Source of the DNA: Synechococcus sp. WH 8020
GTDB lineage: Bacteria; Cyanobacteriota; Cyanobacteriia; PCC-6307; Cyanobiaceae
DNA length: 64,000 nucleotides
Direction of reading: 5' to 3'
Assembly (NCBI RefSeq): GCF_001040845.1
Contig: NZ_CP011941.1
Coordinates: forward strand, 2,176,890 to 2,240,889
In this document: one piece after another, positions 13,614-61,949 of the stretch
How positions within the stretch are numbered: the stretch's first letter is position 1
How the letters are laid out: every line of letters starts with the position of its first letter
Program-made: the position numbers and the translations under genes
Notes under the pieces: generated by a model
Databases searched by the model: none
Seen by the model: the letters and a program-made list of their open reading frames with translations, nothing else
What the model was told of the DNA's origin: nothing

Positions 13614-13700
13614 GTCCGGAAGAGCGCCAATCGTTCATTCTAAAAAACGATCCGCTGGCTATTCGGTATCACCCAATCCCGCACAGACTCCCCCCAAGGG

Positions 13701-14843
13701 CTGACACTCCCCGTCTGGGTTGCCGCCGCAGCTCGAGCGGCCACGAAAGTGTTGTGTGGACAGGCGTTCGAAACTCCACAATCGCTGCAGATTCCAGGTC
13801 GTGATCAGCCCCTCAGCGTGCCGCTTCAATCGGCAGCGCCCTTGCAAGGAGGTGAGCAAGCTTTGGCGATCAGCCGCTGCGACCCAGGTCCAGGTCTTGA
13901 TCTCACTCGAGATTTAGAAATTTGGGTTCAGGTGCGTTGGAGTCAACCGGAAACAGGCTGGTTGGAGATCGTGCCGGGGGAGGGGATCGGCAGACAGGGG
14001 CCTGAGGGTGATCTTTGCGCTTCTGATTTCGCCCGCCGCGTCTTGGAGGCCAATCTGCGCGACCTGGTTCCTCCTGGCCGATGTTTGCAGATGGAAGTTG
14101 TGTTTCCGCTCGGCCGCGAATTAGCCCAGCGCACGAGTAATGCAGCGTTTGGCGTGGTGGACGGCTTGGCCTTGATCGGCACGCAAGCCGAGGTGCAGTC
14201 GAGTGCATCGCCGGATCAGCTGCGCGCCAGTCTTGATGCTCTTCAGGCAATTGCGGGAGCAGCCGATTTCTGTGGATCCCTCACCCTTGTGATTGGGGAG
14301 AACGGGTTGGATCTCGCCCATCAGCTGGGTCTTGCTGATCAACAGCCTCTGCTTAAGGCAGGGAATTGGATTGGGCCTTTGCTTGTGGCCAGTGCGGAAG
14401 CGGGTATTCGCAACCTCCTGTTGCTCGGCTATCACGGAAAGCTGGTCAAATTGGCCGGCGGGATCTTCCATACCCACCACCATTTGGCGGATGGTCGATT
14501 AGAGGTTCTTGCGGCGATTGCCCTGCAGCAGGGACTCGGTGTGGATCTGATCAAAGACCTACTGGCTTGTGCGTCGATGGAATCGGCGCTTCAAGAGCTT
14601 CAGAAGTGCGATTCCACCAGTGCAGATCAGGTCTGGCAAGCGATTGCACAGGCTGTTGAAGTGCGAAGCGAGGCATACCTAAAGCGTTATGGCACCTGGT
14701 CTATGCGGGTTGGTGCCGCGCTATTTGATCGCGAACGTCAGTTGCGTTGGACCGGATTGACAGGACACTCCCTTCTCGCCTGCTGCGGACTTGGCATTCA
14801 TTCGGAAGGGGAAGAGGCCGGCTTTGATCCTTCTCTACGCTGA
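13701..14843 (+). CDS. cbiD: Cobalt-precorrin-5B (C1)-methyltransferase
   Basis: CbiD methylates C1 of the corrin ring in the anaerobic (early cobalt) B12 pathway. The frame encodes GLTLPVWVAAAARAATKVLCG at its start, then DLCASDFARRVLEANLRDLVP, the GYHGKLVKLAGGIFHTHHHLADGR signature near the middle, and a typical C-terminus. The conserved N-terminus begins upstream of the first canonical start, a GTG at 13749. Between the in-frame TAA near 13641 and that GTG there is no ATG, GTG or TTG, only ATC (for example 13668) and CTG (13701). I place the start at the CTG as the shortest form keeping the conserved block. It is followed 48 bp later by guaA. Confidence 0.88.
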   Translation: MTLPVWVAAAARAATKVLCGQAFETPQSLQIPGRDQPLSVPLQSAAPLQGGEQALAISRCDPGPGLDLTRDLEIWVQVRWSQPETGWLEIVPGEGIGRQGPEGDLCASDFARRVLEANLRDLVPPGRCLQMEVVFPLGRELAQRTSNAAFGVVDGLALIGTQAEVQSSASPDQLRASLDALQAIAGAADFCGSLTLVIGENGLDLAHQLGLADQQPLLKAGNWIGPLLVASAEAGIRNLLLLGYHGKLVKLAGGIFHTHHHLADGRLEVLAAIALQQGLGVDLIKDLLACASMESALQELQKCDSTSADQVWQAIAQAVEVRSEAYLKRYGTWSMRVGAALFDRERQLRWTGLTGHSLLACCGLGIHSEGEEAGFDPSLR

Positions 14844-47561: not shown

Positions 47562-48542
47562 TTAGCCCAACAATCCTTCTCGAAAAGCATCTCCTGCTAA
47601 AGCTCCTCGTTTAAGCATCGCTTCCACCTTTAAAAGTCGTCCCAAGAGAGATAAAAGCCGTTTCGGGTTTCTGCCTTTCAATTGCTTGCGCATCACGTAG
47701 ATCCGCTTTGGATTGCCAATGCCGGCGGCTTTGGCAATGACGGCCACATCACGTTCTCCTTGTTGTTCCAGTAGCAGGACCCAAAGCAAGCCACGGATTT
47801 GTCCTGTGAGGGTGGCAACGATGCGTAGGGCGGGTTCACCCGCATCAATGAGGGCATCCAGGAGGCCAATGGCACCCCCAGCATCGCCTTCCAGCAAGGC
47901 ATCGCCCACGGCGAAGGCATTGGTGGCTTGGCCGTCAATCAGGGTCTGCACGGCTTCGGCACTGATGCGCTCCTGCCCATGGCTTTCGGCGTGGAGCGCC
48001 AGCTTTTGCAATTCCATGGTGAGGCGTGCGCTGTCATTGCCGATGGCATCAACGAGTGCGGATACGGCCTCCGTTTCCATGCTCACGTTGAGATCCGCGG
48101 CTGTGCGCTCCACCAGTTGGCGTTGGCCGGCTCCATCCCAGATCGCCGGAAGTTGGAACTTTTGTTCGCTAGCGAGCCCTTGCTTGACCCGTTTTTGAAG
48201 AGCCTTTGTGGTGCGTAAGCGTCCGTCTGGTTTGGCTGGGTTGGTGAGCAACAGCTGGGTGCTGTCTGGGATGAGTTCGAGGGAAGCTTCAAAGCGATCC
48301 GCGAGTTCGCTTGGGCAGGCATTGCAAAAGGGTGAGCGTTGCAGCAACACCACCCGCATTCCCGCCCCGAAAGGAGGAGTGCGTGCCTCCTCCAGGGCCT
48401 GTTGAGCCTGGCCGGCTTCGCTGCCGTCGAGGCGGCTGAGGTTGATGCTGCTCCAGCTTGGGTCAATCGCTTCCTCGATCAGGGCTGCGACGGCACGATC
48501 GCGGGCGGCACTGTCGTCACCCCAGAGCAGATGGATTGGCAT
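47562..48542 (-). CDS. holA: DNA polymerase III delta subunit
   Basis: The clamp-opening subunit of the loader complex, 326 residues. The N-terminal domain begins HLLWGDDSAARDRAVAALI, with the DnaA-like fold segments LLLTNPAKPDGRLRTTKALQKRV and VSALVDAIGNDSARLTMELQKLAL. The C-terminal collar ends LLKVEAMLKRGALAGDAFREGLL. Divergent from cobH with only 58 bp between the ATG and the earliest plausible cobH start. Confidence 0.92.
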   Translation of the reverse strand: MPIHLLWGDDSAARDRAVAALIEEAIDPSWSSINLSRLDGSEAGQAQQALEEARTPPFGAGMRVVLLQRSPFCNACPSELADRFEASLELIPDSTQLLLTNPAKPDGRLRTTKALQKRVKQGLASEQKFQLPAIWDGAGQRQLVERTAADLNVSMETEAVSALVDAIGNDSARLTMELQKLALHAESHGQERISAEAVQTLIDGQATNAFAVGDALLEGDAGGAIGLLDALIDAGEPALRIVATLTGQIRGLLWVLLLEQQGERDVAVIAKAAGIGNPKRIYVMRKQLKGRNPKRLLSLLGRLLKVEAMLKRGALAGDAFREGLLG

Positions 48543-48600
48543 GGAGAAGCTGGGAGCTCAGGGGGCGGCTTTGCGTCGATGATGCCGGAGTTGCGTCTGG

Positions 48601-49239
48601 ATTCCTCTGAACCGCGATCATCCGATCTTTTCTGAAAGCATTCGCCGCATTCGGGCCCTGCTGGGAGACACCGGTTTGGACCCGTTGTCGCGAGACGTTC
48701 TCGAACGGCTGGTGCACAGCAGTGGGGATCCCTCTTTGGCGGCCCTGCTGCAGTTCAGCCCCGGTGCCTGTGTTGCCGGACTTCAGGCTCTCAAGGCGGG
48801 AGCTCTGATCCTCACGGACACAGCGATGGCGGCAGCGGCGGTGCGGCCGATGGCGGCTCGTACCGCGGGGAATGAGGTGCGTTGCCTGCTCGATTGGGCT
48901 CCGGCTCAGTCGCCGCAGGGATCTACCCGTTCGGCAGCGGCGATGGTTCGCGCGTGGCCGGAGCTGATCCAGGCCGCCGAGGTTGCAAGTCAGCCCTTGC
49001 CTCTTGTGCTCATTGGCAGTGCTCCAACGGCCTTGGAGCAACTCCTGGATCAACTGGATGCGGGGGCAGCGGCTCCAAGCCTGGTGATTGGCATGCCGGT
49101 GGGGTTTGTGGGAGTGCCGGAAAGCAAGAGTCGCTTGGCGCAGTCCACCCTGAATCAGATCCGCTTGGACGGCACCCGCGGCGGGGCTGGCCTGGTGGCA
49201 GCAGCCGTGAATGCCTTGCTACGTCAGGTGGCGAGTTGA
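48601..49239 (+). CDS. cobH: Precorrin-8X methylmutase (cobalt-precorrin-8 methylmutase)
   Basis: CobH/CbiC moves a methyl group from C11 to C12 of the corrin ring in B12 synthesis. The frame encodes [43 protein letters not shown], the family N-terminus, then [29 protein letters not shown] and [13 protein letters not shown]. The first TTG is at 48676, inside this block, and no ATG, GTG or TTG lies between it and an in-frame TGA at about 48580. ATT at 48601 (10 bp after GGAG) or CTG at 48607 are the candidate starts. I use the ATT. The 3' end overlaps mutS by 16 bp. Confidence 0.87.
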
Positions 49240-51974
49240 TCCAACACTTGGCGTGCACGCTGCACCACGCTGGCAGGCACCCCAGCTAGGCGGGCAGCTT
49301 CGATGCCGTAGCTGCGGCTTGCTCCACCGGCGGCGACGCGATGGAGAAACACCAGATCGCTGCCGGTTTCTTCCACCAGCACTTGGCAGTTGGCCACGTT
49401 GGAGCGCTCTGCGGCCAGGGCATTCAGCTCGTGATAGTGGGTGGCAAACACGGTGCGGGCCTGGAGATCACCGGCCAGATGTTCGCTCACGGCCCAAGCG
49501 ATCGAGAGTCCATCAAAGGTGGCGGTACCCCGTCCGATTTCGTCGAGAAGGACAAGTGAGCGGTCGCTGGCGTGATGCAGGATGTTGGCGGTTTCAGCCA
49601 TTTCCACCATGAAGGTGGATTGGCCGGCGGCGAGGTCATCCACAGCGCCTACGCGCGTGAAGATTCGATCTGCGATTCCGATCCGTGCCGTTTGTGCCGG
49701 AACCCAACTGCCGATCTGGGCCAGCAGCTGGATCAGGCCGATCTGGCGTAGGTAGCAGCTTTTGCCGCTGGCATTCGGCCCGGTGAGGACCACTAAATCG
49801 ATGCCTGTACCTAACTCGCTGTCATTCGGGGTGAAGGCGTCCTCCACCAGCAGTTGCTCGACCACCGGATGGCGGCCCTGTTCGATCACCAGGCTGCGAT
49901 CCGCTGTGATTTCAGGAGCACACCAACCTCCTGTGGCAGCGGCCTCCGCCAGGCTGGTGAGGGCATCAAGGCCCGCGATCGCCCGCGCAGACCGGCGGAT
50001 TGCTTCTGCGTGATCGCCGATCTGTGCACGCAATTCACAGAACAGTTCGTACTCGCGTTGCGCGGCACGGGCACGCATCTGAAAGATCTGCCCTTCCCTT
50101 GCCTTGAGGTCGGGGGTGATGAAGCGTTCCTCATTCGCCAGGGTTTGCCGCCGAATCCAGTGGTCGGGCACGGCGCCTGAGCGGGCCCGGCTCACCGATA
50201 GGAAATACCCAAAGGTGCGGTGATATTGAAGCTTGAGGTTGCTGTTGTTGCTGCGTTGACGTTCGAGTTGCTCCTGTTCCGCCAGCCACTTTTCTTGGTC
50301 ATCGAGCTGATTGCGCAAGCCATCCAAGAGTGGGTCGACTCCGTCGTGGATCAGCCCCCCTTCGCTGAGGCTCAGCGGTGGGCTGTCCACCAGTTGATGC
50401 CGGATGCTCGCTCCGAGAGTCGCGAGTGCTGGATCAGGTTTCAGCACATCCGACAGCCAAGAGGGTCCACCCTTGAGCTGGCTGGCGATCAGGTTGGCGA
50501 GCTGGGGTAAGCGCCCTAAGCCGTCGGCGATTGCCACGAGATCTCGGGCTCCGGCATGCCCTGCACCGGCCCTTCCGGCGAGACGTTCCAGGTCACCCAT
50601 GGGACGCAGCAAGCGCCGCAAGGCTTGGCGCAACGGTCGCTTGCTCACCAATTGGCTCACGCTTTCTTGGCGGGTTCGGATGATGGAGGGATCCATTAAC
50701 GGGGCCTCAATCCAGCGGCGCAAACAACGCGCGCCCATGGCGGTGAGGGTGCGATCGATCGCCCAGAGCAGTGAGCCCTGAAATTGGTTGTCACGCTGGG
50801 TAGCGGTGAGCTCGAGATTGCGTCGGGTTTGGGCATCCAGCACCAGCGCGTCTCCTGGGAAGCAGGTGATCGGTCGCTCCAAGGGCGGAGGGGTGATGCC
50901 GTTGTCGTCTAGTGGACAGGTCTCGCCGAGGTAGGAGATCAGTCCGCCGGCGGCGCGCATGGCAAGGGGAACGTTTTGCAGCCCTAAACCGTCGAGGGTT
51001 TGTAATCGGAATCGCTCCAAGAGCAGCGCTTCTGCTTCCGGTTGGCTGAAGGGTGTATTGCCGATGTCGCAGCGTTGCAGTCGCTCTGGACACCAGCTGG
51101 GCGCCATGCTGTTTTGGCTGTGGTGGATCAGTTCCGCTGGATCAAGCCGCGAGAGTTCTTGATGCAGCGCAGCGCTGTTCTCTTGTTCGCGGACTAAGAA
51201 TTCGCCCGTGCTCACATCGGCGCAGGCCAACCCCCAGCGAAAGGGCTGCCGACCTTGAGCGGGCTCAACTACCACCGCCGCCAGCCAGTTGTTGCGGCGC
51301 GCGCTGAGCAGGCCTTCTTCAAGAACGGTGCCTGGTGTCAGCACCCTGGTGATGTCGCGCCGCAACAAGGTTCCTTTGGCAGAGCCACTGGCAGGGGCCG
51401 CCTCGAGTTGGTCGCACAGCGCCACGCTGAGGCCGCGGCGAATCAGTTCTGAGCAGTAGCGCTCAGCGGCGTGATGGGGAATGCCAGCCATGGGCACCCT
51501 TCCAATTTGTTTTCCTGCCTCTTTCCCCGTGAGGGTGAGCTCGAGTAGGCGCGACAGATGGATGGCGTCTTCGAAAAAGCACTCAAAGAAATCACCGAGC
51601 CGATACAGCAAGACCCGCTCGGGATGGGCGGCTTTGAGCTCCACGTAGTGGCGGAGCATCGGGGTGAGTTGTTCCGGCGTGACCTGGCTGTGGTGTGACC
51701 ACGGCGGCAGATCGTCGTCGCTGTTGTCTTTGTCGTTGCCTGCGGGCGTAGAGGTTTCGGAGTGTGCTTCTTCGCTTGGACTGCTTGCGGAGGGCTTGGA
51801 ATGCTGTTCTTGGCCTTGGCGCTGACGTGGGCGCTGCTTGGCGTCTTGCGTCAGCTCGTGATCATCGAGCTGATCGGGCTCACCTTGTCTGTTCTGGCCC
51901 TTGCTTGGTGCTGAACTGGCTGGTTCCGCATCCCCAAAAAGGTTGCCCTGCAGGGCCAAGTCCGGTTGGGGCAC
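49224..51974 (-). CDS. mutS: DNA mismatch repair protein MutS
   Basis: A 916-residue MutS1. The mismatch-probing FxE motif is in LGDFFECFF near residue 129, the connector and lever domains follow, and the ATPase reads [15 protein letters not shown] (Walker A variant, usually GPNMSGKST) with [30 protein letters not shown] and FATHYHEL. Residues 1-100 are an unusual low-complexity Gln/Ser/Pro/Glu-rich extension absent from E. coli MutS. The Walker variant keeps the lysine and a Ser, so the enzyme should bind ATP. Confidence 0.96.
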
Positions 51975-60540: not shown

Positions 60541-61320
60541 ATGCCAAGTTTTTCGATTCTTCCTCCTGTGCTTCCCAAGCCATCGCCAGGGTCCTGGGTA
60601 ACGCTGAACACCGGTCCAGTGCCCTTGCGCTGCTGGTGGGCGCCCACCAGCAGCGCAAGGCCGGCTAGCGGTGCTGTGATCGTGCTTCCCGAGATCTTTG
60701 GCCTGAATTGTTGGGTGCGTGGTGTGGCTGACCGCTTGTCGGCGGCTGGTGTTCCGGCCCTCGCGATGCCGTTGTTTGCGCGGACAGCCCCAGAGCTCGA
60801 GCTTGGTTATGACCCGGAGTCCACCAGCGAAGGTCGGCGCCATAAGGAGGCCACGAGCGCCGAGGCGATCCTTGCGGATGTTCAAGCTTCGATCGATTGG
60901 CTGCGGCATGCGCTTGAAGCCAATGATCGGCCTCTGCGGATCACGGTGGTGGGGTTCTGTTTCGGGGGCCATGCCGCTCTGCTGGCCGCCACCCTGGCTG
61001 ATGTGCAGGTCAGCTTGGATTTTTATGGGGCAGGGGTGAGCCGTGGGCGGCCCGGTGGAGGAGCCCCCAGCTTGGAGTTGCTGCCCTCGGTGCAGGGAGA
61101 GCTGCATTGTTTGTGCGGCAGCCTTGATCCCCTGATCCCAAGGTCGGATCAACAGGCGATTCAAGCGGCATTGCAAGCCGAGGATCCCTCTGGTTTGCGC
61201 TTGCGTTACAGCGCATTTGAGGGGGCTGATCACGGCTTCATGTGCGAAGCCCGAGATCAGTACCACCAGGCCTCAGCGCAGGAGGGCTGGCGACTGCTGC
61301 TGGAGGCGGCTCAGTCTTGA
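60541..61320 (+). CDS. Dienelactone hydrolase family protein
   Basis: A 259-residue alpha/beta hydrolase. The nucleophile is Cys in [11 protein letters not shown], the acid is Asp in CGSLDPLIP and the His is in GADHGFM, the DLH triad. An early [20 protein letters not shown] is the oxyanion region. Natural substrate unknown; cyanobacterial members are often called carboxymethylenebutenolidase by homology. Residues 28-40 ([13 protein letters not shown]) are encoded by a perfect 38-bp palindrome. The 3' end overlaps infC by 10 bp. Confidence 0.88.
60623..60660 (+). repeat. perfect 38-nt palindrome inside the DLH gene
   Basis: CCTTGCGCTGCTGGTGGGC at 60623-60641 is exactly the reverse complement of 60642-60660, with no loop. 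The two half-sites are each 19 bp. It lies within a coding region, so the reading frame passes through both arms. Confidence 0.97.
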
Positions 61321-61949
61321 GTGCTGATCCGACGAGCGGGTGAAGGGATGGTGCGTACCGCTTTGTTCACCACTTCTTCGTCCTTGTCTTTCTTGACCAG
61401 CGGCGCTTTGCGGGGGGTCAGAAACATGATCATGTTGCGGCCTTCGCGCTTCGGAGGCTGCTGCACCTCGGCGGGCTCTTCCAGGTCTTTGGCCATTCGG
61501 CGCAGCAACACCTCGGCTAAGGCGGTGTGCTGAATCTCCCGGCCTCGGAAAATAACCGTGCATTTCACCTTGTCGCCCGCCTTGAGGAAGCGCTGGGCTT
61601 GACCGATGCGGACGTCGTAATCGTGCTGGTCGATTTTGTAACGCATCTTGACCTCTTTGACTTCGGTCTGATGCGACTTTTTCTTCGCTTCTTTGGCCTT
61701 CTTTTCTTGCTCGAATTTGAATTTGCCGTAGTCCATGATCCGGCAAACCGGAGGATCGGCTTTCTCGCTCACCAGCACGAGATCGAGTTCGCGTTCGCGC
61801 GCAACTTCTAATGCTTGCTCCCGGTCGATCACCCCGAGTTGTTCTCCGTCTGCGTCAACAACCCTGAGCTGTGGGTAATTGATGCGGTCATTGATGTTGG
61901 GGAGCTCCCGGACGGGGGCGCGACGATCAAAGCGAGGACGTGGAGGCAT
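61311..61949 (-). CDS. infC: Translation initiation factor IF-3
   Basis: IF-3 keeps the 30S subunit free of 50S and checks the start codon. The 212-residue protein has an N-terminal domain ([28 protein letters not shown]), a lysine-rich linker ([25 protein letters not shown]) and the C-terminal domain ([31 protein letters not shown]). A basic extension of about 45 residues follows residue 170. The start here is ATG, not the AUU used by many infC genes. Neighbouring rpmI-rplT are not adjacent. Confidence 0.97.

Follow-up and report, generated by a model that had tools for sequence, protein, structure and literature searches.

In Escherichia coli, infC, which encodes IF-3, starts at AUU and is autoregulated, and prfB is the bacterial case of programmed +1 frameshifting, with a conserved shift codon beside a stop in the first frame. 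A GTC start that is repressed by IF3 has been proved experimentally for sigR of Streptomyces (PMC5472188), corrective +1 shifts have been described mostly in mitochondrial genes (PMC5009743), and AUU starts emerge very rarely, with one switch to AUU reconstructed among 61,358 ancestral AUG starts (PMC5622118). Within the window analyzed here, a stretch of 64,000 nucleotides from the 2.66 Mb single-contig genome of a marine cyanobacterium (G000 in the genome comparison), two cobalamin genes, cobH and cbiD, probably use weak, non-standard start codons of a kind that gene-calling software may miss. Both would resemble infC of E. coli in having a near-cognate AUH start in a bacterial gene, but the discriminating factor is itself the product of infC, which in the window has an ATG start, whereas cobH and cbiD encode metabolic enzymes. 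With sigR, the best documented parallel that we met, they would share a noncanonical start that is conserved among related species and missed by annotation; the ribosome binding site of the sigR regulator is extensive (AGGAGGTG), whereas cobH has GGAG only and no Shine-Dalgarno sequence is evident by eye before cbiD. The starts of cobH and cbiD are deduced by comparison, in contrast to the experimental proof for sigR. Among the papers listed by our searches, whose gene-specific terms were cbiD and the pathway, none deals, judging by title and abstract opening, with a noncanonical start of either gene.

The cobH gene (cbiC, precorrin-8X methylmutase), read from a candidate AUU, spans 48601 to 49239 on the plus strand, with the divergent gene holA (47562 to 48542, minus strand; TIGR01128) on one side and mutS (49224 to 51974, minus strand) on the other. 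Its product is a member of the CbiC/CobH family (PF02570, E-value 9.7e-56), with residues 9 to 208, counted from the ATT, covering positions 2 to 195 of the 196-position profile. Alignments to 10 distinct solved homologues begin at query residues 7 to 9 in seven cases, at residue 17 in one, and at residues 31 to 32 in two. The initial annotation had stated that the gene has no canonical start before its conserved block, and reading the frame confirms it. An in-frame TGA at 48580 to 48582, present in all seven distinct members of the clade described below, marks the 5′ limit of the possible start region and is followed by TGC CGG AGT TGC GTC TGG ATT CCT CTG and then by AAC CGC GAT CAT CCG ATC TTT; the earliest in-frame ATG, GTG or TTG is the TTG at 48676 to 48678, residue 26 from the ATT and already inside the conserved protein. 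The near-cognate candidates ahead of the DHPIF motif are ATT (48601 to 48603), CTG (48607 to 48609) and GTC (48595). As had been noted, a Shine-Dalgarno-like GGAG lies 10 nucleotides before the ATT (48587 to 48590). The AUU also holds up as the best single candidate. An ATG ATG in the neighboring frame at 48579 to 48584 had been overlooked.

This overlooked pair of codons explains how the canonical start was lost. We found cobH in 29 of the 31 genomes in a search of the genus. In the comparisons below, sequences identical across the gene and its flanks were counted once (L003 and L085; L002 and L088); L003 is identical to G027. In genome G015, whose cobH sequence is identical in L002 and L088, the gene opens in frame with ATG ATG CCG GAA TCG CGC CTC GAT CCT CTG AAC ACT GAT CAT. 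The window carries one additional T at 48602 to 48603 (GATTCC versus GATCC in G015), and this one-base insertion put the ancestral ATG ATG out of frame. The extra T is common to seven distinct genomes (the window, G021, G001, G006, G024, G027 and G011), in all of which the ATG ATG is intact but displaced, and these form a clade with support of 100 in an IQ-TREE analysis of cobH and its flanks that excluded the start region. Four of them (G006, G021, and the window with G001, which form a pair) have TGG at 48598 to 48600 and no canonical start, while G024, G011 and G027 have TTG at that position, seven bases after the GGAG. The three TTG carriers form one group (support 98), so that a single gain suffices by parsimony, and G006 branches before the rest of the clade (support 85). 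Given this branching order, the start-less state is ancestral in the clade, and several lineage splits therefore passed without a canonical cobH start before one group gained UUG. The GGAG is found in 7/7 clade members, versus GGAA in G015. The clade thus preserves the loss of a start, survival without it, and its regain in one subclade. Across 120 distinct cobH loci (135 were given, two could not be read, and duplicates were merged), seven had no canonical codon within 25 codons: the four clade members, L030, L056, and L035, where a contig end truncates the locus. L030 (1959 to 2012) and L056 (1947 to 2000) are from two metagenome-assembled genomes of a separate lineage, and their only near-cognate codons are CTG and GTC or GTT.

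Despite the missing start, cobH of the start-less clade is a functional gene, as judged from its substitution pattern. Among the four start-less genomes, whole-gene dN was 0.020 to 0.055 and dS 0.24 to 0.46, giving dN/dS ratios of 0.05 to 0.14; the range was 0.05 to 0.17 when all seven clade genomes were included. The signal of selection was weaker in the first 25 codons, where each start-less pair showed 2 to 4 nonsynonymous and 0.5 to 6 synonymous differences, with 3.5 versus 0.5 for the pair G000 and G001.

We favor, with a probability of roughly 0.55, the reading that a working cobH lost its in-frame AUG through the T insertion and that its translation now begins from a near-cognate codon, most likely the AUU at 48601; near-cognate initiation from any of the candidates, taken together, appears quite probable. 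The ribosome would begin at this AUU, placed by the GGAG, which could pair with the anti-Shine-Dalgarno sequence because the single genome match of GGCTGGATCACCTCCT, presumably the 3′ end of 16S rRNA, carries CCTCC. The three sister species would afterwards have regained a canonical UUG one codon upstream of the AUU. A spacing of 10 nucleotides is longer than usual, and the AUU is preceded by GG rather than by the dipyrimidine that has been suggested for cyanobacteria (PMC5622118); the CTG at 48607 is preceded by CT. The ATT column is invariant in 7/7 clade members, and the canonical TTG arose one codon upstream of it, not in it; the CTG is equally invariant, so conservation does not discriminate between the two, and that of the ATT is indistinguishable from the conservation of an ordinary isoleucine codon. 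The main feature that initiation at AUU alone fails to explain is the conservation of the 24 nucleotides from the ATG ATG to the GAT (48579 to 48602), in which one of 24 columns varies compared with 155 of 618 in cobH (binomial 0.009). In the 30 columns just upstream, 16 are variable, or 11 without G006, where an indel inflates the count; 13 of 594 windows of the same length within cobH are as conserved as the block. This conservation may reflect the upstream region of holA, which overlaps the block, the ribosome binding region of cobH, or genuine initiation at the ATG followed by a +1 shift. Predicted folding of the start region was unremarkable (z-scores of 0.69 for cobH in the window, 1.15 for locus L082, and 1.08 for cbiD in the window).

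The last of these possibilities, in which ribosomes start at the ATG ATG at 48579 and make a corrective +1 shift near the inserted base to yield MMPELRL(D)-PLNRDHPIF, would account for the ATG ATG and the 24-nucleotide block being kept in all seven genomes, and the sole variable column of the block is synonymous in the ATG frame (CTG/CTT). The GGAG inside the block could serve as a stimulator, and the described mitochondrial cases (PMC5009743) likewise involve one inserted base with the reading frame continuing on both sides. The cobH junction differs from these in having neither a recognized shift-prone codon nor a stop, and re-pairing from CUG at UGG looks unfavorable. Nor does the arrangement match that of prfB, as the first stop in the ATG frame lies past the needed junction and this TGA is replaced by CGA in G021 and G024. 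The upstream region of holA on the opposite strand may account for the conservation of the block. We consider such a shift unlikely. Re-initiation after a short open reading frame begun at the ATG was rejected, its stop codon not being conserved.

Initiation at CUG 48607 or GUC 48595 is a further alternative: the CUG is kept in 7/7 genomes, has CT before it, and is present in the second start-less lineage (L030 and L056), where the stretch from the stop to DHPIF contains no in-frame AUH. Against it, the CTG lies 16 nucleotides and the GTC only 4 nucleotides from the GGAG. The CTG is also an ordinary leucine codon in G015, which makes its conservation uninformative, and the precedent within the family, in cbiD, is for AUH; we regard either codon as a rather improbable start. 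Much less probable still is a shortened protein begun at TTG 48676, or a decaying gene. Although this TTG is the first canonical codon and the two solved homologues that align only from residues 31 to 32 could accommodate it, it would remove a segment aligned in seven of the ten, and the gene is under purifying selection throughout the clade. A sequencing or assembly error, for which a single inserted base would be a usual form, can practically be dismissed: the identical insertion occurs in seven distinct genomes, five of them single-contig, and G021, G001 and G006 are start-less as well.

The preferred reading, near-cognate initiation at AUU, would concern a rare class of genes in the window. 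We submitted 38 open reading frames to NCBIfam and obtained for 31 a model reaching the N-terminal part of the frame; in 29 of these a canonical start lies no later than the point where the model begins, with cbiD and cobH as the two exceptions, although four of the 29 pass by construction as canonical frames and several models begin far inside the frame, where the test is weak. A similar control based on BLAST alignment starts was discarded after flagging 23 of 60 frames, as alignments extend into conserved upstream or overlapping sequence.

The second exception, cbiD, is the stronger near-cognate case and our most valuable result. Read from AUC, it spans 13668 to 14843 on the plus strand and matches TIGR00312 with 271 bits (cut-off 200). 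An in-frame TAA lies at 13641 to 13643, and the next ATG, GTG or TTG is the GTG at 13749, within the region matched by the model. Between 13614 and 13703 an ATG is absent from every frame, which excludes for this gene in the window the frameshift route considered for cobH. The inferred start, ATC at 13668 to 13670, is 11 codons before the conserved block. Within the genus, where cbiD was matched in 28 of 31 genomes and could be read in 27, 21 genomes have ATC in this column and 6 have ATG (G003, G018 and G019; G005, G009 and G029), corresponding to two changes on a tree with 26 leaves scored. No other codon at positions −18 to −1 exceeds 11/27, with the exception of glycine at −1. In-frame canonical codons are absent from the last 25 codons before the block in 12 of the 27 loci.

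A wider search of 251 genomes of the family found cbiD in 228, from which we compared the genus loci, 14 further loci, and 60 stretches hand-picked to cover genera; 101 of these 102 loci were read and one gave no match. In the 25 codons before the block, 25 loci have an ATG, 39 have GTG or TTG only, and 37 have no canonical codon, six of the latter having one farther upstream and 31 having none in the available open frame. In all 37, positions −13 to −7 include an AUH codon (ATC in 29, ATT in 7 and ATA in 1), compared with a mean of 36% and a maximum of 62% in 200 composition shuffles, a comparison to which we attach no probability because related genomes are not independent. Two pyrimidines precede the AUH codon in 32 of the 37. 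Among the 39 loci with only GTG or TTG, AUH occurs at the same positions in 30 and is absent in 9. Outside the family, a canonical codon was found within 20 codons of the block in 30/30 loci, these being the 30 highest-scoring loci from a search across the class that matched 65 of 68 genomes. The column of ATC, ATT or ATG can be followed from the window (13668 to 13670) through family loci L110 to L136 and L161 to L239. These comparisons support an AUC or AUU start of cbiD across much of the family, and AUG in other lineages, in line with the original suggestion that a second cobalamin gene in the window shares a noncanonical start. That the two starts have a common origin does not follow: the state of cobH stems from an insertion in one clade, while the AUC/AUU start of cbiD extends through a large part of the family.

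With cbiD long begun at AUC or AUU, the lineage may already have been capable of near-cognate initiation when cobH lost its AUG. Such starts would be expected to give weak expression, which the low enzyme demand of the pathway might make tolerable. It is conceivable, though we think it unlikely, that in marine picocyanobacteria two steps of corrin-ring synthesis, that of CbiD and, in one clade, that of CobH, depend on near-cognate AUC/AUU initiation, so that initiation fidelity, through the level or activity of IF-3, throttles synthesis of the B12-type cofactor; if true, this would be a layer of start-codon control over a metabolic pathway, and for cbiD it would be conserved across much of the family. 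Retention of AUC or AUU by a biosynthetic gene throughout much of a family of abundant ocean bacteria would also offer a natural system in which to study how start codons are discriminated. On the practical side, annotation restricted to ATG, GTG and TTG is predicted to truncate or miss cbiD, as well as cobH in one clade, and such missed calls could distort counts of B12 producers.

Focusing on the rest of the pathway, we surveyed 11 genes in this genome (leaving out cobN, cobO, cobS, cobT and cobU), with names presumptively assigned from PF00590, PF07685, PF02571, PF03186 and known motifs. Only cobH and cbiD lack an ordinary start; one is available in the nine others, as ATG in cobA, cobM, cobL, cobK, cobQ and cobB, GTG or TTG in cobI, TTG in cbiG-cobJ, and GTG in cobD. 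A pathway-wide rule of low expression, raised in the initial annotation, is thus not borne out, and its parallel to IF-3 autoregulation finds no counterpart in infC of the window (61311 to 61949, minus strand), which starts at ATG and matches its model from residue 16. Two observations had been named as counting against the original proposal, ordinary starts in the other cob and cbi genes and a cobH start at 48676; the former was found in the genes surveyed, and the latter is unlikely for the reasons given above. We rejected cobD as a further start-less gene, as a GTG column is present in 14 of the 15 readable genus loci (30 were given, and 15 were unreadable by the motif used). At the remaining cobD/cbiB locus, L316 in G018, the column reads GTA and the 26 codons before the conserved block contain no ATG, GTG or TTG. 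At L141 (G000:C1:2530593-2531222), a TP-methylase domain lies within the C-terminal half of a single 635-codon open frame that we take to be a cbiG-cobJ fusion, and TTG codons are the only canonical start candidates near the N-terminus of this frame.
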